Below, in pieces: positions 1 through 11,602 of a stretch of DNA of 64,000 bases. The position numbers and the translations under genes were made by a program. Source of the DNA: Planctomycetaceae bacterium (lineage in GTDB: Bacteria; Planctomycetota; Phycisphaerae; Sedimentisphaerales; UBA12454); contig JAJFVK010000019.1 in assembly GCA_021371795.1 (NCBI GenBank), positions 186,001 to 250,000 of the forward strand, read 5' to 3'. The notes beneath the pieces are model-generated. The model was not told where the DNA came from and did not search any database. It worked only from the letters and a program-made list of their open reading frames with translations. How positions within the stretch are numbered: the stretch's first letter is position 1; the number at the start of each line of letters is the position of its first letter.

Positions 1-1052
1 GTCTGGGCATCAAAGCAGATATCGGCCATTGGCCTTGTTACGCCTTTTCCCGTTACTATACGATGGCCGGAAGATTCCCTATTGCGTTCGACCGTACCTG
101 GAACAATGTCCGCGTTAACAGCCTCCAAAACGCCGGGGAAAAGAGGAATGGCGTCAAACAATATTTCCGCGTTTACTTTGCTCAATCCTGCCATTTCGCC
201 TAAATGTCCCATAAGACTGAAACCCGTTACGTCAGTGCAGGCATGTACGTCGAATTCCTGCATTAACTCGGCGGCTTTTTTGTTCAGAGTTGCCATCGAA
301 TTTGAAATAGCCTTAACGCTTTTTGCAGACGCTTTATCAATCTGTGAAGCGAACGCGATTATTCCTGTGCCCAGTGGTTTTGTGAGTATGAGGACGTCGC
401 CTGATTTTGCATTTGCATTTGTAAGAATTTTTTTGGGATTAATTAATCCGGTTACCGCAAAACCGGCTTTTATCTGCGGGTCGTTAATGCTGTGTCCGCC
501 TATGACGGGCACCTCTGCTTCTATCATTTTGTCTATTCCGCCTCGAAGGATATCACGCATTATTGAGTCCTTGAGTTCTTTGCATGGAAATCCGATTATT
601 GACAAGGCGGTGATTGGTCTGCCTCCCATTGCATATACGTCGCTAACTGAATTAGCAGCGGCAACCTGACCAAACACGTACGGGTCGTCAACAGAAGGTG
701 TGAAAACATCAACTGTTTGAACCAAAGCTGTGTCTTTGGAAATTTTATAAACTCCTGCGTCGTCACCCGCGGCAGCACCAACCAGCACATTCGGATGATT
801 GAAAGAAGGCAGTCCTCGCAAAACATTTTTCAAGAATTTCTGGTCTATTTTAGAAGCACAACCGGCTTTTTCGACCAGTTTTGTAAGCTGCACTTTTTTT
901 GTTTTTGCGTCTTCAAGTCGTTCTCCTGCACACAGGCAAACATTTTTCCCCTGAAATATGTCGCACGGACACGGTTTTTTAGGGTCGCATACACAATGGC
1001 CAAGCCGCATAGAACGGCCCATAATCAATTTTCTTTTTTCGATGTTAATCAC
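1..1052 (-). CDS. selD: Selenide, water dikinase (SelD), 3' end cut by window edge
   Basis: SelD makes selenophosphate from selenide and ATP, the selenium donor for SelA. Visible family signatures are AGCASKI (Cys65 and Lys68 sit where the E. coli Cys17/Lys20 pair lies, so this is the cysteine form, not a selenoprotein), GDDAGVY, and a QTVDVFTP...DDPYVFG...NSVSDVYAMGG block. The chosen start is GTG at 1052, preceded by AAAGGAG and overlapping the upstream activase stop by 8 bp; an in-frame ATG lies 10 codons later. Before the SelD core is an extra ~50-residue N-terminus with three CxC pairs (Cys20/22, 28/30, 39/41), which suggests a metal or chalcogen binding segment. About 350 codons are present, and roughly 40-50 C-terminal residues lie outside the window. 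It is the last gene of the methyltransferase/double-cubane operon. Confidence 0.95.
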   Translation of the reverse strand, partial: MINIEKRKLIMGRSMRLGHCVCDPKKPCPCDIFQGKNVCLCAGERLEDAKTKKVQLTKLVEKAGCASKIDQKFLKNVLRGLPSFNHPNVLVGAAAGDDAGVYKISKDTALVQTVDVFTPSVDDPYVFGQVAAANSVSDVYAMGGRPITALSIIGFPCKELKDSIMRDILRGGIDKMIEAEVPVIGGHSINDPQIKAGFAVTGLINPKKILTNANAKSGDVLILTKPLGTGIIAFASQIDKASAKSVKAISNSMATLNKKAAELMQEFDVHACTDVTGFSLMGHLGEMAGLSKVNAEILFDAIPLFPGVLEAVNADIVPGTVERNRESSGHRIVTGKGVTRPMADICFDAQ

Positions 1053-1854
1053 ATTCAACTCCTTTGATTTCATGTTGCTGTTTAAAATATTTAATTGCGA
1101 GAATCGCTGCGCCGATTGCGCCGGTCAATTGCGGCTGCGGCGATATTTCAACTGGTCTTTCAAAAACTTTCCGGAGGGCGGTATCCATTCCATGAATCAT
1201 AGCTACACCGCCTGTAAAAATAATTTCAGTCGGCAAATTTCGTCCGGCCATACTCAAGATTCGCGATGCGATAGCGTTTTGTACTCCGCAGACGATATCG
1301 GCAGGGGAGCGTTGTTCTGCCATTAATCCCACGATTTCTGTTTCAGCGAAAACGACACACATACTGCTGATTGAGGCGGGCTGTTTGCTTTTTTTTGCCA
1401 TCATACCCAGCGCATTAAGCAGTACAGATAATTTTTTCGCGACCATTTCCAAAAAGCATCCTGTTCCGGCTGCGCAGCGGTCGTTCATTGCGAAGTCTTC
1501 AATACTGCCGCTTTCGTTCATCCGAATGAATTTGCTGTCCTGCCCGCCAATGTCTATAATCGCACGCGCATCGGGAACAAAATATTTTACTCCGGTCGCG
1601 TGGCAGGTGATTTCGGTAATTGCCTTATCGGCGAAGCTTATTGCATTTCGGCCATAACCGGTTGCGATTGTCGCGGCAACTTCGCTGTGAGATATGCCGT
1701 TATTTTTCAGTGTATTCTCAAAAAGTTCTCTTGCGAGATTTTCCTGTGCCACTCCCTGATCAATTACGCCTGTTGCGATAATTTTAGAATTATCTGAACG
1801 CATCAATGCGATTTTGATTGCTCGTGAGCCTGCGTCTATGCCGGCACAAATCAT
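1045..1854 (-). CDS. 2-hydroxyacyl-CoA dehydratase activase (HgdC/BcrA-type ATPase)
   Basis: This is an ASKHA-fold ATPase that injects low-potential electrons into double-cubane or HgdAB-type reductases. Visible motifs are the first phosphate loop DAGSRAIK (residues 7-14), the second phosphate loop IDIGGQDSKFI (near 100-110), NDRCAAGTG, and GGVAMIHGM near the C-terminus. Cys127 and Cys166 are placed as the two cysteines of this family that bridge a [4Fe-4S] cluster across the homodimer. At 269 residues it has full family length. Its start overlaps the preceding reductase subunit by 4 bp (ATGA), and its stop overlaps the selD start, so translational coupling is likely. The substrate of its partner enzyme is not known from sequence. 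Confidence 0.92.
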   Translation of the reverse strand: MICAGIDAGSRAIKIALMRSDNSKIIATGVIDQGVAQENLARELFENTLKNNGISHSEVAATIATGYGRNAISFADKAITEITCHATGVKYFVPDARAIIDIGGQDSKFIRMNESGSIEDFAMNDRCAAGTGCFLEMVAKKLSVLLNALGMMAKKSKQPASISSMCVVFAETEIVGLMAEQRSPADIVCGVQNAIASRILSMAGRNLPTEIIFTGGVAMIHGMDTALRKVFERPVEISPQPQLTGAIGAAILAIKYFKQQHEIKGVECD

Positions 1855-3233
1855 TTTTGCCTCCGCTGTAAAACAATTTCAATTAATGTTTCAATTTTAT
1901 TTTTTATCGGCTGCCGCAAGGAATCCGATAGCGATGGAATTTCAATTTCAAGCGTTGGAATGCCAAGTTTTTTCTTAACGATTTCTGCGATTATTGTGCC
2001 TTCGGTTGCGCAATGACTTGCGCCTGGGATACGAGAAATAATAATTGCGTCAGAACCGAATTTTTCAATATCCCGACAAATGCGTTCAGCGCGGTCGAAC
2101 GAAGAACCGGCCATAGTATCCGCTAATGCCATCTGTGCCAATGCGTCCATCGGCGATATATCTGTCGGTATCATATCCAAAGCGTGTGTAAAAAGGTAAT
2201 CTGTGCCGCAAACGCGTCCGCCGCAGTCTTCAAGAAGATTCATTGCTCGCAAATCAGATACAGGATTAACCCAAAAGATTTTCGCGGCGTTTTTATCTGA
2301 AATTCCTTCATTATTTGCAGCTCTACACTGTGCTTCTTTTAATAATTCCTGTAAAATTACGGTTGTTTCGTCAATATCCGAACAAAAATGAATAGCGAGC
2401 ATTTCCGCAATGAGCATTTCAAGTGCGGGTAGCGGATTTATTTCTGCTGTGAAAACAATATGCCGAAGTTGAGCGAGCAAATTGCGAACAATATTCGCTT
2501 TGGCAATTCCATTTGCCAGTTTTTCATCTGTAAGTCTTTCGCCTGTTAATTTTTCTAACAAACTTCTTATGTGTTCCAGTTCTGTTTTTACGAATTCAAT
2601 TTGTGACAGTGGAACGTGAAAACCGCCGGGCAAATTTATCCTCACTTCATTGTTTTCGCTTTTGCGTCTGTGCGGAATTTCCCACCAGTTTATTTTAAAA
2701 CCAAGACAGTCAAGGCGTTGAGCAATTGCTGAAAAATCGTCACAAACAGCCCCTGTGCTGCAAATAAGCATATCGGGAACAGGGAAATGTTCCTCATTCA
2801 GAAAAGCACCCAGCATCGCACGTACCGGACAGAATGATTCATCGATGCCGAGCGAATCGGCGATTTTGAATAAACCTTCATTCGTTTCCATAATACAAGG
2901 CGTCCACCATGCCCCATCCGGATAAAACGCAACCGTATTTTCTAACGCGTAAACCATAACAGGAATTGTGCCAAGGTCTTTCATTGTGCCGACGATTTTT
3001 TTGCCGTCTGTGCGAGCTTTATGCAGACGTTCATTTTCTGTAAGCAAAAAATTCCACAGTCGAAGCGATGCAGCGGAATTATCAAATTGAAGAGTACGCA
3101 GCCTTGTGTCGCCGTCTTCAGCGTGTCTTCGCAAACTTCCGCCATAATCAGGCTGCTTTATTCCGGCTCTGCAAAGCAATTTATATTGTTCATCCCATTG
3201 TTCGAGAGTGATTTTGGAAGTTTTTTGTTTCAT
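1851..3233 (-). CDS. 2-hydroxyacyl-CoA dehydratase (HgdB/BcrC) family protein, long subunit
   Basis: A 460-residue protein of the HgdB/BcrC/double-cubane superfamily, recognised from the overall pattern (an N-terminal helical region, a DMLICSTGAVCDDF segment like the CDQxKR-type cluster loop, and a C-terminal ISRIPGASHCATEG...LGIPTLEIEIPS strand-loop typical of the D subunit). Cysteines that could ligate Fe-S are spread over residues ~150-165 and ~395-400. It overlaps both neighbours by 4 bp, so it is clearly one subunit of a multi-subunit complex with the two following (upstream) genes. The reaction is unknown; reduction of a small substrate at very low potential is inferred from the family. 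Confidence 0.8.
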   Translation of the reverse strand: MKQKTSKITLEQWDEQYKLLCRAGIKQPDYGGSLRRHAEDGDTRLRTLQFDNSAASLRLWNFLLTENERLHKARTDGKKIVGTMKDLGTIPVMVYALENTVAFYPDGAWWTPCIMETNEGLFKIADSLGIDESFCPVRAMLGAFLNEEHFPVPDMLICSTGAVCDDFSAIAQRLDCLGFKINWWEIPHRRKSENNEVRINLPGGFHVPLSQIEFVKTELEHIRSLLEKLTGERLTDEKLANGIAKANIVRNLLAQLRHIVFTAEINPLPALEMLIAEMLAIHFCSDIDETTVILQELLKEAQCRAANNEGISDKNAAKIFWVNPVSDLRAMNLLEDCGGRVCGTDYLFTHALDMIPTDISPMDALAQMALADTMAGSSFDRAERICRDIEKFGSDAIIISRIPGASHCATEGTIIAEIVKKKLGIPTLEIEIPSLSDSLRQPIKNKIETLIEIVLQRRQK

Positions 3234-4126
3234 TCAAGCATCTCCATAAACGCTTGAATTCGTGTAGCCAGCCGGTTTTCTATGTTTTTATCGTTGTCGC
3301 CGGCACTAATATCCAGAACAGGCAGGTTTGTGAATTTCTTATCGGATATTCGGCCAAGTTCCGCGTGCCATTTGTCGCACCACATATAATGATGGAATAT
3401 AATACCCCGAACGGGTGTTTCGTTTAGTTTCTTTTTAAACCATTCGTAAAGCTTGTCATTAGGCCTTTGGAATACATCAGGTATAGTTTCAAAGTATGCG
3501 GCTGCCAATTCTTTAATGGGATTTTCGTTGAGATGTGCCGGATTAAATTTTCTCGGCAATGTACGCGGGCCGTCTGTTGTCGCGTCAAGAGTGATATAGC
3601 CGCCATATTTTCGCACAATATCAAAAATAATATTGTCCTGTTTCAGCAAATGACTGCCTATCAGGGCAAGAGGCGTTTTGCCATTTGGTTTTGTTTGTAC
3701 AGAAGCCTTGTTCCTTTTATTTTCAAACTCGACCATAGTTTCGACAAGCTTTGCATTAGTCGGGCCTTGTCCGTTAAATTGTGTCAGAAACCTGCCAAGC
3801 CTTTTGAGTTCTGCGGCATAAAGTTCCGCTGCAGATTTTCTTTGCCATATAGTCGGCACATTCATTAGGAATATCGGAAGATTATGATTTTGCGTTGCGA
3901 CATCGGCAGTGCGTCGCATTTGGTCGCAGGTGGTCGTTAAAATTGCAGCACAGGCATTTTTTTGAATCTTTATTTCATTTATAAATGCTCGCGCGTATGG
4001 GCATATACCAATTGCCGCGTTTTTAGATATCCTCGGCGTGATTCGTAACGGTTGCAGACCGTGAGCGGCTATCCATTCCGGCGGAATATATGGGTCGCAA
4101 TATATAACGGTATTTTTGCTGTTCAT
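3230..4126 (-). CDS. HgdB/BcrC-family protein, short subunit
   Basis: About 298 residues from the ATG at 4126, which lies 7 nt after the stop of the upstream subunit; the open frame runs 17 codons further upstream but that would overlap the upstream gene. The visible pattern is YCDPYIPPEWIAAHG...GICPYARAFINE...AILTTTCDQMRRTAD, the family's N-terminal cluster-binding lobe (Cys in the CPYAR and TTCDQMRR contexts), then a C-terminal lobe with FHHYMWCDKWHAE. It is shorter than usual HgdB-type subunits (~350-430 residues) but appears complete. Its 3' end overlaps the next gene by 4 bp. The TTCDQMRR motif closely resembles the CD.xKR motif that ligates the [4Fe-4S] or double-cubane cluster. The substrate is unknown. 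Confidence 0.8.
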   Translation of the reverse strand: MNSKNTVIYCDPYIPPEWIAAHGLQPLRITPRISKNAAIGICPYARAFINEIKIQKNACAAILTTTCDQMRRTADVATQNHNLPIFLMNVPTIWQRKSAAELYAAELKRLGRFLTQFNGQGPTNAKLVETMVEFENKRNKASVQTKPNGKTPLALIGSHLLKQDNIIFDIVRKYGGYITLDATTDGPRTLPRKFNPAHLNENPIKELAAAYFETIPDVFQRPNDKLYEWFKKKLNETPVRGIIFHHYMWCDKWHAELGRISDKKFTNLPVLDISAGDNDKNIENRLATRIQAFMEMLE

Positions 4127-4133
4127 AGTTTTA

Positions 4134-5288
4134 CTATTTCCGTGACGTTTCAAATAAAGCTGCCACACGCATCTCAATACGTGCAGAATCTGATGGTGAA
4201 TAATCTGTCTCTATTTTAAGGTAGGGCAGTTTAAATTCCTGCTGTGCCAATTGCCTGATAAAATGCGATTCAACATCATAAGTCAGACAAGCCTGCCAAA
4301 TCAATTCGACAATGCACTGCGGCCGGTATTGGCGGATGAGTTTCCGCAAAGTTTCAAGTCTGAGATCATTTCTGGTCATTACTGAACAAGGGATATTAAA
4401 GTATTTTTTCGCCAACGCTGCCATTGGGTCTTCAATAGTTTCATCGACATCTTCCAATATTGGTTTTATGCCGGTGCAATTTTCCATACATACAACCAGT
4501 CCGCCATTTTGCTCAATGATGTCGATTACACGTTCCGCGCCGTGTGCTAACGGTACGCCGGTTAAGAGCACGCGAACTTTTTTTGCCGTTCCGCATTCAG
4601 CCTTTTTTGATTTCATTATGCTTATGATTTTTTCATATTCTTCCAAATCAGCTTCAATGCCGCCGATAATACTTTTTAGCTCCAAAAGCTGACGCCCCGT
4701 TAATGGCGGGGTATCTGATTCCATAAATCCTGCAAGCTGACGCCGTAATCTGCGTTCACGATTCATTAATTCAATTGCTTGGCGGATTTTAGCGTCCGTT
4801 ATTTTTGTGTTGAAGCGTTTTTCCAAAGCTGATTTTAATTTTATAAGTTCCTTGTGCCAATGTTCAAAAGCGTCAGAGTCGTCTGGCTTTTGCGATAATT
4901 CCAATATATGCATTGGGTGGTTTTGCGACAAAAGTTCATACATCTTTTTTTTGCCGTCACAGGTTGTTTCCGCGACCAGTAAATCAGTCATTTCCAAAAA
5001 CGGATTTTTTTTGAGTATGTTATAGCCGTAAGTTGATTTAATGAGAGGACAAAGATTTTTGGGCAGATCCTGTTCCGCTGCTGTAATAGTGTTTACAGAA
5101 CCTCCGCACAAGCATACCGGAATCGCACCTGCCGCCATTATCAGTTCTCGAGGCGTATATTCACACATAATGCCGACAATCGGCCTGCCCTGTGCCTTTG
5201 CGGTTGTCGCGTATTGAAGGCAATTTGGAATCATATTTTTAAACCACGTATTGCTGCATAAGTTTTCGTTGCCGCCGCAATTTCCCAT
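4134..5288 (-). CDS. Double-cubane-cluster-type anaerobic reductase subunit
   Basis: A 384-residue HgdB-like protein. Features are an N-terminal GNCGGNENLC segment, VGIMCEYTPRELIMAAGAIPV (family hallmark), CPLIKSTYGY, LLVAETTCDGKKKMYELL (cluster-ligating Cys-Asp-Gly-Lys-Lys), a charged helical stretch around 150-235, VRVLLTGVPLAHGAERVI, and the C-terminal IETDYSPSDSARIEMRVAALFE. These match what is generally called double-cubane-cluster-containing anaerobic reductase, a relative of 2-hydroxyacyl-CoA dehydratases thought to reduce small molecules with electrons from the ATP-driven activase. It is second in the operon, 14 nt after the methyltransferase. Confidence 0.88.
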   Translation of the reverse strand: MGNCGGNENLCSNTWFKNMIPNCLQYATTAKAQGRPIVGIMCEYTPRELIMAAGAIPVCLCGGSVNTITAAEQDLPKNLCPLIKSTYGYNILKKNPFLEMTDLLVAETTCDGKKKMYELLSQNHPMHILELSQKPDDSDAFEHWHKELIKLKSALEKRFNTKITDAKIRQAIELMNRERRLRRQLAGFMESDTPPLTGRQLLELKSIIGGIEADLEEYEKIISIMKSKKAECGTAKKVRVLLTGVPLAHGAERVIDIIEQNGGLVVCMENCTGIKPILEDVDETIEDPMAALAKKYFNIPCSVMTRNDLRLETLRKLIRQYRPQCIVELIWQACLTYDVESHFIRQLAQQEFKLPYLKIETDYSPSDSARIEMRVAALFETSRK

Positions 5289-5302
5289 AGCGTATTCCTT
5301 TC

Positions 5303-6109
5303 TTAATTACGCTTACGTGCGATAAACATTCCCTGTGCGATTTTGCCTTTATGTGCCAACTGCTGCATAAACATCATTTCGCCGGCCATTGCCTGCATCA
5401 GGTCTGAATTGAAATTAATAATTTTAAGAGCATCGTAAGTAAGCTGCATATTCAGCATATTCAAATACAAATCGACATAAGGAGCGAAACGTTTCGTATC
5501 CTTGGCTGTAATAACCTCACAATTATTTTTTTGGAGCAGACTGCAATAATCGCTCATATTATTGATGTTCGGGAATTTCATAAATTTTAAAAATCTCTCT
5601 GCCTCGTCAGAAGTAAGTCCTGAATCTCCTTCGACCCAATCAGTAAATGCGATGATGCCGCCGGGTTTTACAATTCGAACTGCTTCGGCAATCAGTTTTT
5701 CTTTGTCGACTACATAGCACCACGCATCTTCGCCCCAAACGAAATCAGCAGAATCACTTTCGAGTCCGCTGCTGCACACATCGGCCAGAGTAAAATGGAT
5801 TTTATCTGCAAATCCTTCCTGCTTGACTCGTTTAATTCCTTCCTGCACTATATGCTGTGTGGCATCTATGCCTTGCATTTGCTTCGCATCGAACATTCGC
5901 ACTAAAAATCTCATTCCCGCTCCGGTACAGCAGCACAGGTCAACGCCGCACATACCTGTTTTTATACCTGCTTCTTTAGCTAAAGCCGTAGAAGAAGCAA
6001 GTCCGCCGATGTGTATTTGCTCCCCCATAATAAGTTCCCAGAGATTGCCTTCCGGCCCGCTATACACAACTTGTACATCATTTAATCCCACACTTGAAAT
6101 ACTTTTCAT
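5303..6109 (-). CDS. SAM-dependent class I methyltransferase, first gene of the reductase/selD operon
   Basis: 268 residues with a Rossmann methyltransferase core: motif I VDLCCCTGAG (about 56-65), GIDATQHIV acidic strand end, FVWGEDAWCYVVDKEKLIAEA and RIVKPGGIIAFTDWV. The opening VVYSGPEGNLWELIMGEQIHIGG resembles sarcosine/dimethylglycine-type methyltransferases. The start ATG at 6109 has a GAAGGA ribosome site 6-7 nt upstream, and this site directly follows the T-run of an intrinsic terminator, so expression requires read-through of that hairpin. The association with reductase subunits and SelD hints at a one-carbon or chalcogen substrate, but this is inference only. Confidence 0.85.
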   Translation of the reverse strand: MKSISSVGLNDVQVVYSGPEGNLWELIMGEQIHIGGLASSTALAKEAGIKTGMCGVDLCCCTGAGMRFLVRMFDAKQMQGIDATQHIVQEGIKRVKQEGFADKIHFTLADVCSSGLESDSADFVWGEDAWCYVVDKEKLIAEAVRIVKPGGIIAFTDWVEGDSGLTSDEAERFLKFMKFPNINNMSDYCSLLQKNNCEVITAKDTKRFAPYVDLYLNMLNMQLTYDALKIINFNSDLMQAMAGEMMFMQQLAHKGKIAQGMFIARKRN

Positions 6110-6192: not shown

Positions 6193-6357
6193 TCACAAGA
6201 GTGTCCTCCATATTAATTCAAATGACAAAAGTTCAAATTTAGAATCGGATTGATAATTGTCATTGAAGTTTTGGGGCACTCGCCACGAGCACCGGCAGGA
6301 ATTGCTTCAGCCATAGCCTGTAATGATTTGACCTCGGATTATCGCAATATTTACCAT
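6193..6357 (-). CDS. Short UGA-containing selenoprotein-like ORF in the operon leader (leader peptide or decayed copy)
   Basis: From ATG 6357 the frame reads 16 codons ending ITGYG, then UGA at 6309-6307, then 37 codons to the next stop at 6193. Translated with UGA as selenocysteine, the part after it (U-SNSCRCSWRVPQNF, then NDNYQ... to SFE) lines up without gaps with the C-terminal part of the selenoprotein at 8939-9628 (U-SGNCRYSWRVPNNF, then SGNFQ... to PFE). The same 13-nt gap and hairpin follow both UGAs. There is no clear SD; a TATAAT-like -10 would place the transcript start at about the ATG. It may be a functional short selenoprotein, a regulatory leader peptide that senses selenocysteine decoding, or the remnant of a duplicated gene. 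No conclusion is possible from sequence alone. Confidence 0.5.
6275..6293 (-). promoter_or_regulatory. bSECIS-like hairpin after UGA 6309-6307
   Basis: On the minus strand, 8-bp stem GGUGCUCG / CGAGUGCC with loop UGG, beginning 13 nt after the in-frame UGA. This is the same position and almost the same sequence as the hairpin at 9438-9456. One stem position is A-U there and G-U here, so pairing is kept while the base changes. Confidence 0.6.
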
Positions 6358-6502: not shown

Positions 6503-7906
6503 ATGCAGGAAAATAATCAAAGTCTTTTGAGAAAAATACCGTCGGTTGATGAACTTTTGGATTTTTTATCATTTCCCCATGTGCCTGTGCCGCGAACCAT
6601 AATAGTCAATGCAATCAGGGATTCAGTGAATGAGTTTCGTGTACAGCTTTTGAAGGAGTCCGACAAAAAAATGAGTGAAGAGGCAATCCGGGAGTTAATT
6701 GTTTCGGCCGCTAAAGAACGCATCGAAAAAGCAATGAAACCATTCTATCGTAAAGTGATTAACGCTACCGGTATTATTTTGCATACGGGAGTGGGAAGGG
6801 CGATTCTGCCGCGACAGGCGATTGAACAGATAACAAATGAACTTGGCGGTTATTCTCTGCTCCAGATGGATTTGGAAACTGGTGAGCGTTCAAAGCGGGA
6901 TAATTGTATTGAGCGGCTTTTACAGCAGTTGACTGGCACGCAGGCAGCGACAGTGGTAAATAATAATGCGGCCGCAACTGCGATTGTTCTTAATACGCTT
7001 GGATGTGGTAAGGAAGTGATAGTTTCGCGCGGACAACTTGTAGAAATCGGCGGGTCGTTTCGACTGCCGGATGTAATGGCTTCAAGCGGCGTTAAGCTTG
7101 TTGAGGTTGGAACGACCAATAAAACTCATCTACGAGACTATAAAAACGCTATCACTGAAAATACGGCCGCGATTATGAGAGTGCATCCGAGTAATTATAA
7201 AATTACCGGTTTTACATCAGAAGTTCCGCTTGACGAACTTGTCTCACTTGCGCACGAGCATAAATTACCTCTTATAGATGATGTTGGAGCCGGGGCACTG
7301 ATTGATTTTTCGAAATTTGGTTTTGAATATGAGCCGACTCTTGCGGATTCTATTCGTGCAGGTGCGGATGTTGTAACCAGCAGCGGCGACAAACTGATTG
7401 GAGCTTCACAAGCTGGAATTATTCTTGGTAAGTCTGAATATATCAACGCAATAAGAAAGAATCCTTTCGCCAGAATAGTAAGGGTGGATAAGATAACGCT
7501 TGTTGCTCTCGAAGCAACGTTGAAGCTATTTTTGGATGAATCTTTTGCTCTGAAGGAGGTTCCGACTTTGGCGATGTTACAGCGTTCGATTGAAGAGCTT
7601 AATAAACAAGCCAGGAATATTGAAAGCGAATTAAAACTTCGAAATTGTGATGCTGAAATCGAGGTTGTGGACGGGTTTAGCCAAATGGGGAGCGGTTCAC
7701 TGCCGTCGCAGAACCTCAAAACAAAACTTGTCGCAGTTAAGCCTAAAAAAATTGGAATTGATGTTTTTGCGAAAAGATTGAGGATGTATGAGCCGCCGAT
7801 TATCGGCCGAATTCAAAATAATCAATTCCTTATGGATTCGCGTACGCTGCTCGAAGATGACGAAAAGATAATTGTTGAAGCGGTTTCAAAAATTCTTGCC
7901 CCGTAA
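6503..7906 (+). CDS. selA: L-seryl-tRNA(Sec) selenium transferase (SelA)
   Basis: A PLP enzyme that converts seryl-tRNA(Sec) to selenocysteyl-tRNA(Sec) using selenophosphate. It has 467 residues, the usual length for bacterial SelA. Visible signatures are INATGIILHTGVGRAILP, the cofactor region EVGTTNKTHLRDY, LIDDVGAGALIDF, and SSGDKLIGASQAG, where Lys297 is the expected PLP lysine. The start ATG 6503 has a weak GGTGAAG site. It is the first gene of the plus arm, followed by a prepilin-like gene, the selenoprotein and selB. Together with SelB and SelD it gives the window all three protein factors for selenocysteine insertion; the tRNA(Sec) gene is not seen. Confidence 0.97.
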   Translation: MQENNQSLLRKIPSVDELLDFLSFPHVPVPRTIIVNAIRDSVNEFRVQLLKESDKKMSEEAIRELIVSAAKERIEKAMKPFYRKVINATGIILHTGVGRAILPRQAIEQITNELGGYSLLQMDLETGERSKRDNCIERLLQQLTGTQAATVVNNNAAATAIVLNTLGCGKEVIVSRGQLVEIGGSFRLPDVMASSGVKLVEVGTTNKTHLRDYKNAITENTAAIMRVHPSNYKITGFTSEVPLDELVSLAHEHKLPLIDDVGAGALIDFSKFGFEYEPTLADSIRAGADVVTSSGDKLIGASQAGIILGKSEYINAIRKNPFARIVRVDKITLVALEATLKLFLDESFALKEVPTLAMLQRSIEELNKQARNIESELKLRNCDAEIEVVDGFSQMGSGSLPSQNLKTKLVAVKPKKIGIDVFAKRLRMYEPPIIGRIQNNQFLMDSRTLLEDDEKIIVEAVSKILAP

Positions 7907-7979
7907 ACTGGGATGTTTATGTGAAATAGACTCGGATATATCCGGAAAATACTTGCAAACACGTGTTGGGAAAGGTAGG

Positions 7980-8864
7980 ATGGCAGGCATGGAATCGAGA
8001 CGAAAATCTGAAGGGTTTACGCTCATCGAATTGCTTGTGGTGATTTCCATAATCGCAATGCTGCTGGCAATACTAATGCCGAGTTTGACGAGGTCTCGCG
8101 AACAGTCAAAAAGGGTGGTATGTCTGGCCAATCTTCACGCAATTGGTCAAAGTCTGTATCTTTACGCACATGATTTTGATGGTATGATTGTGCCGGGTGA
8201 ATGCCAGACCCCCTGGGATGTGTGGTCGGTGCCGACCGAGAATGCAGGGGGCGTAATTCGCGATCAACCACAGTCGGTAAATTTAGGGCATCTGCTTTCG
8301 GCGGATAAAGTACCTATGCCGACGGGGGATAATCATATTTTTTTCTGTCCGTCAGGCAGTAATTTCGATAGAGGCAGGCCTTACGATAACTTTAAATCGA
8401 CTTGGGGCGAGAGCGATTCAACAACATATATTACCTATATGTTCAACAATAGTCTCGACGGCTTCGACAATTGTGTTGCGCCGGGTCAGCAAAGCATACT
8501 ATTTCACACTGACAAAATAAATTATCTGTTGACCGATGGAAGCGTGCATGTTTTCAATGTAAAAAAGTTAGTTTACGATGATAACGTCGGAGCTGAAGGA
8601 CTTGCACAGGTTTGTTCAAGGACAGATGTTTGCTTCCCGACAAGTATGCTGCATGGATGGTTTGCAAATGGACAGGTCAATATCGATGAGGCAAAAGAAT
8701 TTTTGGCAAATCCGATGTCCTGGGTAAGTCAGCACGCCACGGGCACAATTTCCAAACCTGTAAGGCTGTCAAATCTTGGAAAGAAGTCTCTGGTAGCGGA
8801 TGTGGTTGGTGGGTGGAAAAAATCAGTACAACCAGAAACCAGGGGACGTCCGGTGCCTGGCTGA
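7980..8864 (+). CDS. Prepilin-type (type II pseudopilin-like) protein
   Basis: 294 residues from ATG 7980, preceded by AAAGG. The open frame begins earlier, overlapping selA, but the type IV prepilin signal (KSEGFTLIELLVVISIIAML: cleavage after Gly, Phe+1, Glu+5) sits at the right distance only from this start. After the hydrophobic stem come ANLHAIGQSLYLYAHDFDG, a cysteine (FFCPSG), and HTDKINYLLTDGSVHVF, resembling the H-X9-DG C-terminal region common in planctomycete pseudopilins. It ends at TGA followed one codon later by TAA. It is likely exported and anchored in the cytoplasmic membrane. Its position between selA and a membrane selenoprotein suggests a working link, but no function is known. 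Confidence 0.85.
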   Translation: MAGMESRRKSEGFTLIELLVVISIIAMLLAILMPSLTRSREQSKRVVCLANLHAIGQSLYLYAHDFDGMIVPGECQTPWDVWSVPTENAGGVIRDQPQSVNLGHLLSADKVPMPTGDNHIFFCPSGSNFDRGRPYDNFKSTWGESDSTTYITYMFNNSLDGFDNCVAPGQQSILFHTDKINYLLTDGSVHVFNVKKLVYDDNVGAEGLAQVCSRTDVCFPTSMLHGWFANGQVNIDEAKEFLANPMSWVSQHATGTISKPVRLSNLGKKSLVADVVGGWKKSVQPETRGRPVPG

Positions 8865-8938: not shown

Positions 8939-9628
8939 ATGAAAGATTATATTCTCGAACTTATTTCCGATTTTATAGATGATTACAATGACTGTTCGCC
9001 GGCAAAAAAAAGAGCCATCCGAATTATCGCTATTCTGATACCATGTTTTTTATTGATAGGATTAATACGATCGTGCAGCAGCGGCCATTCAATGCCTAAA
9101 TCAGAGCAGCAAAAGATTGGGCTTTTGGATTTGGCACGAAAGGATGCGCAAGGCGATAAATGGGAACTTGACCTTGTTAAGGGCCAGCCCATTTCGGGAC
9201 TCAATGTTGACGCCGGTTTTGGGCCTCTGCTGGTTGTAAGAACAAATGCGGAGCTTAAAGAAGCAAATGGCGAAATTTTGATTGGGGTAGTAGTTACAGG
9301 ACGCGGCGGCGAAAAATATGTCGGCGGTGTTCGCAGGAATGGCCAATGGCAGAAGCCGCCGGACTTTAAGATTGTTGATAGTGCAGGCAAAGTGCTTGAC
9401 AGCGGTTCATTCAAATATGGTTGAAGCGGTAACTGCAGGTACTCGTGGCGAGTGCCTAATAATTTTTCAGGAAATTTTCAGATGCAGGTGGATATAAACC
9501 TCGGACCATTTGAGAAAAAAGTTGAGAATGTATGGTATTTGTTGAACGCAAAGCGTGTCGACACAAAGTGGCAGTGGTACGTTGTTGAGGTGAACCAGCC
9601 CTCAACTTGCACGGATCAGCCGAAATAA
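8939..9628 (+). CDS. Predicted membrane-anchored selenoprotein of unknown family (Sec162)
   Basis: The frame opens at ATG 8939, runs 161 codons to UGA 9422-9424, then stays open 67 codons to TAA 9626-9628: a 229-residue protein with Sec162. Layout: cytoplasmic N-terminus, one membrane helix (about 26-43, AIRIIAILIPCFLLIGLI), then a presumably periplasmic beta-rich domain. Around the UGA the protein reads GSFKYG-U-SGNC-RYSWRVP, a UxxxC redox-like motif (Sec162, Cys166). Support for read-through: the gene sits between selA and selB; an 8-bp SECIS-like hairpin starts 13 nt after UGA; and a second copy of UGA, hairpin and flanking peptide exists at 6193-6357, with similarity continuing past the UGA. 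If UGA were a stop, a 161-residue protein and a 48-residue ORF (ATG 9482) would result. I do not recognise the family; a thiol/selenol redox role is inferred from UxxxC only. Confidence 0.85.
9437..9457 (+). promoter_or_regulatory. bSECIS-like hairpin for Sec162
   Basis: Stem of GGUACUCG (9438-9445) with CGAGUGCC (9449-9456), loop UGG, extended by an A-U pair. The apical loop begins ~22 nt after UGA, within the 16-37 nt window usual for bacterial SECIS elements, and the loop contains G and U as in fdhF-type elements. Confidence 0.75.
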
Positions 9629-9688: not shown

Positions 9689-11602
9689 GTGAAGTCCACA
9701 GCCAAACAAATAAATATTACACTTGGAACAGCAGGTCACATAGACCACGGCAAAACTGCGCTGGTTAAAAATCTTACAGGATGCGATACTGATTATTTAA
9801 AAGAGGAGAAAGAGCGTGGAATGTCAATCGAACTTGGCTTTGCGCCCTGCATTCTTTCAAATTTGGAAGTCGGTATTGTTGATGTTCCCGGCCATGAGAA
9901 TTTTATTAAAACAATGGTTGCCGGTGCGGCCGGAATGGATGGCGTAATATTTGTTATTGCCGCAGATGACGGCGTAATGCCGCAAACTCGTGAACATCTT
10001 GGGATTCTTACTCTTCTCGGAATTAAACACGGCATAGTAGCGTTAACAAAATCGGATTGCGTTCAGCCGGAGCAATTAGAAACTGTCATATCGAAACTGA
10101 AAGATTTTCTTAAAGGTACATTTTTGGAAGACTCACCCATTCTTCCTGTTTCAAATATAACAGGTGCAGGCTTCGATGATTTTTATGGTGCCTTGCAGAC
10201 TATGGTTAATTCCATAAAACCAAAACGCATAGATGGTTTTTTCAGGCTGCCGATAGAACGCTCTTTTAGTGTTAAAGGTTATGGAACAGTTGTCGCAGGT
10301 GTGCCTGTTTCCGGTTCAGTTAAAATTGGTGATGAAGTTACGCTTTTACCGCATAATATGAAAGGCCGAATTAAAACTATTCAGGTTTACAAACATTCTG
10401 CTGATGCGGTTTTAGCCGGTCAATGTGCAGCTATTAATATTCCTCAACTTGAACACAAAATGATTGAACGAGGCAATGTAATAGTCTCTAATGATTGTTT
10501 CGTACCCCAGTCGTGGTATTTGTGTAAGTTATCGCTATTGGAGGGTAATCAGTTATTTCTGAAAAATGGTCAGGAAATAAAATTTCACACCGGAACTTCC
10601 GAAATTTTAGCGTCTGTATATCTAATGCTGGGTGATAAATTGCAATCAGGCGAGCAGGCTGTTGTGCAATTAAGACTTAACAGTCCTTGTGTCGCCGCAC
10701 CAAGGGACCGTTTTATAATCAGGAGTCTTTCGCCTGTTCAGACCATTGGTGGCGGAATGATAATAGATTCATTGCCGGTAAAACTAAAAAGAACTTTGCC
10801 GAATATGCAAAATGATGTTACGCAATGGGCACAAGCGGTTCTTGATGAAAAAGATTTTATAGAATATTGTATTAAAAAAGCTCAACTGTATGTTGCTTCC
10901 GCAAAAGAAATCTCCAATCGAACGAAAATTCCGGCAAAATATGTTGAGCAATTTTTAAAAGAACTGGTCACGCAGCAAAAAGTGATAGAGTTTGGAAATA
11001 TGTATATACATCGTGATACTGCGAACCAGCTTGAACAGAAATTACTTGGAGTGATTGCGGATTATCACAAAAATTCTCCACAGGCACCGGGCATAGATTC
11101 GGAATTGCTTTGTCAAATGAGTGAGTTGGACAGGCCGGTATTTAATCTGATTTTAACTTATCTAAAAGAGAAAAGGCTAATTGTCGTCCGTGGACACAAA
11201 TTCGCTTTGCCTGCACATCGTGAGGAATTTCCGGATGTGCATCGGGCGGCTCTTGAGAAAATAGAAAAATTATTTCTGTCGCGGTTATTTAATCCGCCGG
11301 ACAAGGAAGAATTGGCAAAAGTTCTTAGTGTTCCAAATGATAAGATATCTGCACTTGTAAAGATGCTTATAGAGTCTGAACGGCTTGTTGTTGTGGAAAA
11401 GGATTTATTTTTCCATGCTGATGCTATACTGAAAGCACGTCAGCTTTTAGTGGATTACATTAAAAAAGAAGGAATGTTGGAAAGTGTCAAATTCAAATAC
11501 ATTCTTAATACCACAAGAAAATATGCGATTCCTCTTTTGGATTATTTTGACCAAGTTGGTGTTACTCGTAACTCCGGCCATACACGATATCTCAAAAATT
11601 AA
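9689..11602 (+). CDS. selB: Selenocysteine-specific elongation factor SelB
   Basis: A GTPase that brings Sec-tRNA(Sec) to ribosomes paused at UGA by binding the SECIS hairpin. 637 residues. G1 is GHIDHGKT (16-23), G3 DVPGHE (65-70), and G4 TKSD (120-123, the usual SelB form of NKxD). EF-Tu-like domains II-III and the SelB-specific domain follow, and the C-terminal ~250 residues have the winged-helix character that binds SECIS RNA (for example LLVDYIKKEGMLESVKFKYIL...LDYFDQVGVT...GHTRYL at the end). The start is GTG 9689 with an AGGT site. It lies 60 nt after the selenoprotein stop, in the same direction. Confidence 0.97.
   Translation: MKSTAKQINITLGTAGHIDHGKTALVKNLTGCDTDYLKEEKERGMSIELGFAPCILSNLEVGIVDVPGHENFIKTMVAGAAGMDGVIFVIAADDGVMPQTREHLGILTLLGIKHGIVALTKSDCVQPEQLETVISKLKDFLKGTFLEDSPILPVSNITGAGFDDFYGALQTMVNSIKPKRIDGFFRLPIERSFSVKGYGTVVAGVPVSGSVKIGDEVTLLPHNMKGRIKTIQVYKHSADAVLAGQCAAINIPQLEHKMIERGNVIVSNDCFVPQSWYLCKLSLLEGNQLFLKNGQEIKFHTGTSEILASVYLMLGDKLQSGEQAVVQLRLNSPCVAAPRDRFIIRSLSPVQTIGGGMIIDSLPVKLKRTLPNMQNDVTQWAQAVLDEKDFIEYCIKKAQLYVASAKEISNRTKIPAKYVEQFLKELVTQQKVIEFGNMYIHRDTANQLEQKLLGVIADYHKNSPQAPGIDSELLCQMSELDRPVFNLILTYLKEKRLIVVRGHKFALPAHREEFPDVHRAALEKIEKLFLSRLFNPPDKEELAKVLSVPNDKISALVKMLIESERLVVVEKDLFFHADAILKARQLLVDYIKKEGMLESVKFKYILNTTRKYAIPLLDYFDQVGVTRNSGHTRYLKN

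Follow-up and report, generated by a model that had tools for sequence, protein, structure and literature searches.

An in-frame UGA codon in a gene located between selA and selB of a planctomycete genome is almost certainly decoded as selenocysteine (Sec), a reading that is well supported by sequence and lacks experimental demonstration. The gene apparently belongs to a large, multi-copy and so far undescribed family of Planctomycetota and related phyla. As a whole, the best explanation of the data, in which Sec is inserted into an exported, membrane-held Ig-like domain as part of a redox pair, is strongly favoured, again without any experiment. The decoding itself is ordinary, and the novelty lies in the family, in the fold that it is predicted to have and in the fact that nearly all members are Sec forms.

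The window, i.e., the whole stretch of 64,000 nucleotides that was analysed, corresponds to C19:186001-250000 of a 2.85-Mb genome, and the features discussed below are listed in Table 1. The frame of the selenoprotein gene is open throughout except for the TGA codon and specifies 229 residues including U162, which confirms that the UGA is followed in the same frame by 67 sense codons. The initial annotation had placed this gene directly between selA and selB. It does lie between them, but not directly, as a pseudopilin-like gene separates it from selA. This pseudopilin-like gene carries an N-terminal methylation motif and is probably not part of the Sec system.

Table 1. Coordinates of the Sec locus, the selenoprotein gene and related modules (window positions unless a contig or locus is named)
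Feature	Position	Strand	Evidence or remarks
selD (gene cut by window edge)	1..1193 = L005:17829-19193	-	
tRNA-Sec	C19:185725-185816 (just outside window)		72.7 bits
selA, selenocysteine synthase	6503..7906	+	PF03841 5e-145; TIGR00474 1.3e-167
Pseudopilin-like gene, type II/IV	7968..8864	+	PF07963 N_methyl 3.4e-8, residues 43-69 of longest frame
Selenoprotein gene	8939..9628	+	ATG 8939 to TAA 9626-9628, 229 codons
Layout of its product			Short cytoplasmic N-terminus, membrane helix ~21-45, linker, Ig-like domain with Sec162 (predicted from model and homologs)
UGA codon, putative Sec162	9422..9424	+	Motif FKYGUSGNCRYSWRVP; TGA in 120/120 family matches listed
bSECIS hairpin, AGGUACUCG-UGG-CGAGUGCCU	9437..9457	+	6-bp core stem; RUGGM loop conserved in family
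selB, Sec-specific elongation factor	9689..11602	+	PF00009, PF09106, PF09107, PF25461
Paralog 1	C19:179.2-180.6 kb		Signal peptide, Sec domain FKYGUGGTCSYSWRVP, then several membrane helices
Paralog 2	C19:180.6-182.0 kb		Signal peptide, long extracytoplasmic part, Sec domain LEYGUGGTCSLSWREP, C-terminal membrane helix
Decayed UGA-SECIS remnant (short module)	6217..6318	-	TGA 6307-6309; divergent from selA
Other short UGA-hairpin modules	L117:1612-1746		
	L117:2752-2940		
	L093:1933-2130		
	L144:1818-2009		
	L129:4699-4944		
	G033:C1:1594785-1594819		
	G078:C49:22015-22167		

The genes selA, selB, selD and tRNA-Sec, together with three family genes, span about 18 kb, and tRNA-Sec followed by selD is located between two upstream paralogs and selA. 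The selB match covers the SelB winged-helix and beta-barrel domains. Membership among known selenoproteins requires selA, selB, selC (tRNA-Sec) and selD in the genome, and this is met. In selD, a Cys-rich N-terminal stretch (HCVCDPKKPCPCDIFQGKNVCLCAG) precedes the usual domain, and the active-site segment has Cys instead of Sec. Between selD and selA, the reverse strand (1045-6109) holds a cluster that comprises a 2-hydroxyglutaryl-CoA dehydratase D-component protein (4134-5288), an activator-like ATPase, further related-looking ORFs and a methyltransferase (5303-6109).

As had been annotated, a SECIS-like hairpin starts 13 nt past the UGA. It has an apical UGG and a folding energy of -12.9 kcal/mol, and its z-score of -2.2 against shuffles is modest alone. 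With the T of TGA numbered 0, positions 17-22 pair with positions 28-33 around the loop. In 149 distinct sequences, 98.5% of the stem pairs are kept, compared to 62.7% (maximum 66.8%) when the same proteins were recoded 500 times with synonymous codons and 87.3% (maximum 89.5%) when the 3' halves were exchanged between sequences. On a FastTree tree of 158 domains, pair 19-31 underwent a total of 16 changes, with 12 on its left side and 11 on its right side, and the outcome was nearly always a different standard pair. The hairpin is even visible in the protein, through coupled codons such as TAC..GTG/GTA (Y..V), CTC..GAG (L..E) and CAC..GTG (H..V), as well as ACG..CGT (T, R) for TCG..CGA; an RNA hairpin that dictates amino-acid pairs in this manner represents a clean case of an RNA element shaping a coding sequence. 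The published bSECIS model demands a spacing of 16-37 nt, a stem of 4-16 bp and a loop with G within its first two bases (PMC13188914). Here the loop begins 20 nt behind the UGA, and AUGGC variants, with A first in the loop in 31 of the 149 sequences (approximately one fifth), break the G rule. The membership requirement for a bSECIS element close behind the UGA and under selection is met, with A-type loops deviating from that rule.

Conservation of the UGA was examined by profile searches and by a codon-neutral scan. A first profile, built from the three Sec domains of the window's genome, had matches in 25 of 98 relatives; a second one of 28 rows matched 62 genomes in a set of 397 from the class and 20 in a set of 392 from the phylum. 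Nearly all matches in these three sets contain a single in-frame stop, TGA. Among the class-genome matches listed, all but seven have exactly one stop, always TGA, and one fragment among the 98 relatives also had TAA. For the codon-neutral scan, the motif with the third base of the Sec codon left free was searched in the contigs of approximately 85,000 species genomes, resulting in at least 127 matches in at least 114 stretches. All 120 family members among the matches listed have TGA. Seven matches with TGC, TGT or TGG were rejected as unrelated chance matches with no stem. The homologs share TGA at the same column as UGA 9422-9424, so that the requirement of an in-frame UGA at one column is also met. 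Homologs with a conserved UGA plus hairpin, proposed earlier as a check, do exist. The opposite case of homologs all ending at the UGA, which would have refuted the claim, was looked for and is contradicted by the listed homologs, whose domain crosses the UGA.

Members were found in Planctomycetota, Verrucomicrobiota, Lentisphaerae, Hydrogenedentota, Sumerlaeota/BRC1, Riflebacteria and Omnitrophota, along with one record labelled Nealsonbacteria. Since all named members come from metagenome bins, single odd taxonomic placements need care. Up to nine copies per genome were counted with the exact motif (a pattern count) and up to eleven with the profile, the latter being a lower bound with 12 candidates per genome scored.

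Cys-containing homologs, another check proposed in the initial annotation, were identified in genomes where selA was not found. Three of these genomes (G036, G041 and G072) have SQCCGNY..SW or ..NW and one (G396, 79% complete) has GGCGGEAVYYW, all with TGC at the Sec column and only 0-2 of the 6 stem pairs; in G212, where selA is present, a TGC paralog has 6/6 stem pairs. Bacterial selenoprotein genes are also expected to have counterparts with Cys in place of Sec where the Sec system is lacking, and these homologs satisfy that criterion. In some of the Cys homologs, CxxxC is replaced by CC or by one Cys. Non-stop paralogs in two selA-positive genomes (G385 and G148) lack both U and the Cys at +4. 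In G085, a homolog carries Gly at the Sec column and retains the Cys. Most homologs without U have also lost the +4 Cys, so that the two residues usually disappear together.

The family is also linked to selA. The selA gene is present in 151 of the 397 class genomes; of the 53 for which TGA forms were listed, 45 possess it (odds 12.6, Fisher p 6e-14; G065 was scored as selA-negative despite a selA fragment). Because the genomes are related, this p value is only indicative. In seven TGA-form genomes selA was not detected, and most of them are fragmented or incomplete. Their family sequences resemble normal members, and our guess is that missing assembly accounts for them, which leaves two single-contig cases unexplained. 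Such TGA-form members without a selA match are seen in the single-contig assemblies G364 (C1:1573077-1573412, 87% complete) and G372 (C1:463253-463525, 90% complete). The nearest family gene lies less than 5 kb from selA in 28 of 50 selA-positive family genomes, mostly divergent and upstream, and adjacency to selA/selB is also observed in contigs of Verrucomicrobiota, Hydrogenedentota, Sumerlaeota/BRC1 and Riflebacteria. The earlier idea of a selenoprotein that accompanies its own decoding genes is supported across several phyla.

It had further been suggested that this protein may be the main or only reason why the genome keeps the Sec system. The FdhA and SelU models gave no match in the window's genome, which has three family members, and this tests the suggestion only in part, other selenoproteins being outside the survey. 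About 105 selA-positive class genomes have no listed family member, and therefore the family is not a general reason for Sec in the class.

The initial annotation had also relied on a second copy of the UGA module (6193-6357) to argue that the peptide remains similar on either side of the UGA. Such a copy exists, but it is on the minus strand and decayed, and its support is weak: only about 34 residues match (E 1.3e-4), and identity is 76% over the 42 nt that span the UGA and the hairpin, with flanks that are not alike (8/30 and 13/33). Much better support is provided by the intact paralogs, one at C19:179.5 kb and the other at 181.7 kb, approximately 15 kb upstream and just outside the window, both of which have TGA at the same column. 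The position of the remnant, divergent from selA, is the site of an intact family gene in many relatives. Its use as a sense SECIS in the selA leader was considered and dropped, as it is on the opposite strand. Short UGA-hairpin modules of this kind, with the rest of the gene mostly lost, were also seen beside selA or full family genes elsewhere; tandem copies that have decayed could account for them, or they could serve in regulation.

These data leave little room for other readings of the codon. That UGA 9422 is a true stop, a sequencing error or part of a decayed gene, with the downstream frame arising by chance or as a remnant, is very improbable: standard gene callers would indeed stop the protein at 161 aa, and a decayed module lies nearby, but the domain crosses the UGA in 120/120 family members listed, two same-genome paralogs are intact with TGA at the same column, and the hairpin covaries. 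It is scarcely credible that UGA encodes another amino acid (Trp, Gly or Cys) through a changed code or a suppressor tRNA. The frame would be equally open under any reassignment, and the Gly-containing homolog in G085 could be cited for it; however, the long conserved window genes selB and purH have no internal TGA, and Sec is indicated by the hairpin, by the Cys homologs and by the presence of selA, selB, selD and tRNA-Sec next to the gene. Under Sec decoding, SelB with Sec-tRNA would bind the hairpin behind the UGA and insert Sec162 as in standard bacterial decoding.

The previously annotated UxxxC motif (U162, C166) and N-terminal membrane helix are present. The AlphaFold2 model of the window protein (52 sequences, mean pLDDT 79) has a membrane helix at residues 21-45 followed by a beta-sandwich in which the YGUSGNC loop connects strand 152-157 to strand 168-171. 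The model of a 470-residue member (22 sequences, pLDDT 90) is all beta with membrane helices at both termini. For both models, the top Foldseek hits were Ig-like (MG2 of alpha2-macroglobulin, FlgD, Ig domains of beta-glucuronidase and CARDB), none of them below E 1e-3, and the search of solved structures revealed no relative. The models are all-beta, without the thioredoxin fold around Sec that defines the thioredoxin-fold selenoproteins. We infer that the Sec domain lies outside the cytoplasm, given the positive charges before the window protein's helix and, in the longer form, the RRK that follows the C-terminal helix; the inference also rests on paralogs with a signal peptide or with a C-terminal membrane helix that ends in RRK. 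It is very likely that the product is exported and membrane-held.

In the mechanism that we propose, the N-terminal helix would hold the product in the membrane with the Sec domain outside the cytoplasm, and the YGUGG(T)C loop of the Ig-like beta-sandwich would bear U162 and C166, which may form an extracytoplasmic redox centre by alternating between the selenol/thiol and selenenylsulfide states. Redox activity of this UxxxC pair is reasonably probable, being inferred without any homolog of known activity. The pair may be reduced through a NapH-like Fe-S membrane protein encoded beside several members, an inferred electron donor that remains tentative. A recurrent gene set consists of a multi-membrane-helix member, a single-helix member, a carboxypeptidase-regulatory-repeat/thioredoxin-like protein and the NapH-like protein; it suggests, and does not show, an envelope redox function. 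NapH-like genes occur in only a minority of loci, about 9 of 107 family contig loci (one verrucomicrobial) plus the window's genome, with no background rate available, which counts against such a function. In that genome, a carboxypeptidase-regulatory-repeat protein whose C-terminal thioredoxin-like domain has RPSRxC with one Cys is encoded at L005:14122-16584 (C19:182.1-184.6 kb), and a NapH-like protein (HCYACPLATFACPVG) at L005:16588-17415 (-), between the family operon and tRNA-Sec; both recur by family genes. The broader picture, an envelope Sec redox system of multi-copy exported Ig-like Sec-Cys domains, fed by NapH-like proteins and with a single-Cys thioredoxin-like partner, that takes the part of formate dehydrogenase in maintaining the Sec trait of many planctomycetes and their relatives, is offered only as a hypothesis that may well prove wrong.

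A real selenoprotein need not be a redox protein. Its Sec could bind a metal or selenium/sulfur species, or could serve a structural or cross-linking role in the envelope without redox cycling. An Ig-like fold is typical of adhesion and envelope domains, the Sec-Cys loop sits on a beta-sandwich that is no known redox fold, and some Cys homologs show CC or one Cys where CxxxC would be expected; on the other hand, Sec serves redox chemistry in most selenoproteins that have been characterised (PMC13188914), U and Cys are usually lost together, and thioredoxin-like and Fe-S membrane proteins are encoded beside some members. We regard this alternative as rather unlikely and still worth keeping. Another one is a selenium-status sensor, in which the Sec-dependent full-length product is tied to selA/selB expression. 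It would fit that the genes persistently lie next to selA, often as a divergent pair with the intergenic region in common, and that UGA-SECIS modules survive near selA after gene decay, but up to about ten dispersed paralogs per genome with differing architectures, the lack of a DNA- or RNA-binding domain and the exported domain make a sensor improbable.

No Pfam or NCBIfam model (June 2026) matched above its curated cut-off, and no matching motif or domain is present in the 2026 catalogue of 119 prokaryotic selenoprotein families, in which planctomycetes are unmentioned (PMC13188914), in line with the earlier remark that the family was not recognised. Apart from unpublished or subscription sources, the only planctomycete selenoprotein paper that we found is PMC4807772, whose main text deals with known enzymes. 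As the family appears to be missing from the curated libraries tested, its genes are probably annotated as truncated or split, and it may have been overlooked because discovery based on Cys homologs or the thioredoxin fold tends to miss it. The significance lies in Sec placed on a predicted fold unlisted among selenoproteins, by inference outside the cytoplasm, and in an almost Sec-only family, which offers a testable reason for Sec machinery without formate dehydrogenase in many planctomycetes, notably in the window's organism.

The neighbouring Fe-S gene resembles the NapH/MauN membrane ferredoxins in its Fer4_5 domain, its NapH-like profile match and its nature as a Cys-rich membrane protein, but it falls far under the NapH model cut-off, and no nap, mau or nos operon was seen. 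For the family itself, MG2, FlgD Ig-like and CARDB beta-sandwiches are the best weak profile and fold matches, but no sequence or fold match is significant (Foldseek E >1e-3). To our knowledge, no domain of these types has a Sec/Cys loop of the family's kind. As in UxxC/CxxU thiol oxidoreductases, Sec and Cys are close in sequence and usually lost together, whereas the spacing is UxxxC and the fold is not that of thioredoxin. Compared to the catalogued bSECIS selenoproteins (SelA/SelB/SelC/SelD), the family shares the in-frame UGA, loop spacing and 6-bp stem within the published ranges, a GU-containing loop, Sec machinery in the genome and Cys homologs. It differs from them in its [YF]GUGG(T)C..SWR.P motif, which is listed in none, in a modelled fold that is Ig-like rather than thioredoxin-like, and in being nearly all Sec, with rare Cys forms and many paralogs per genome.
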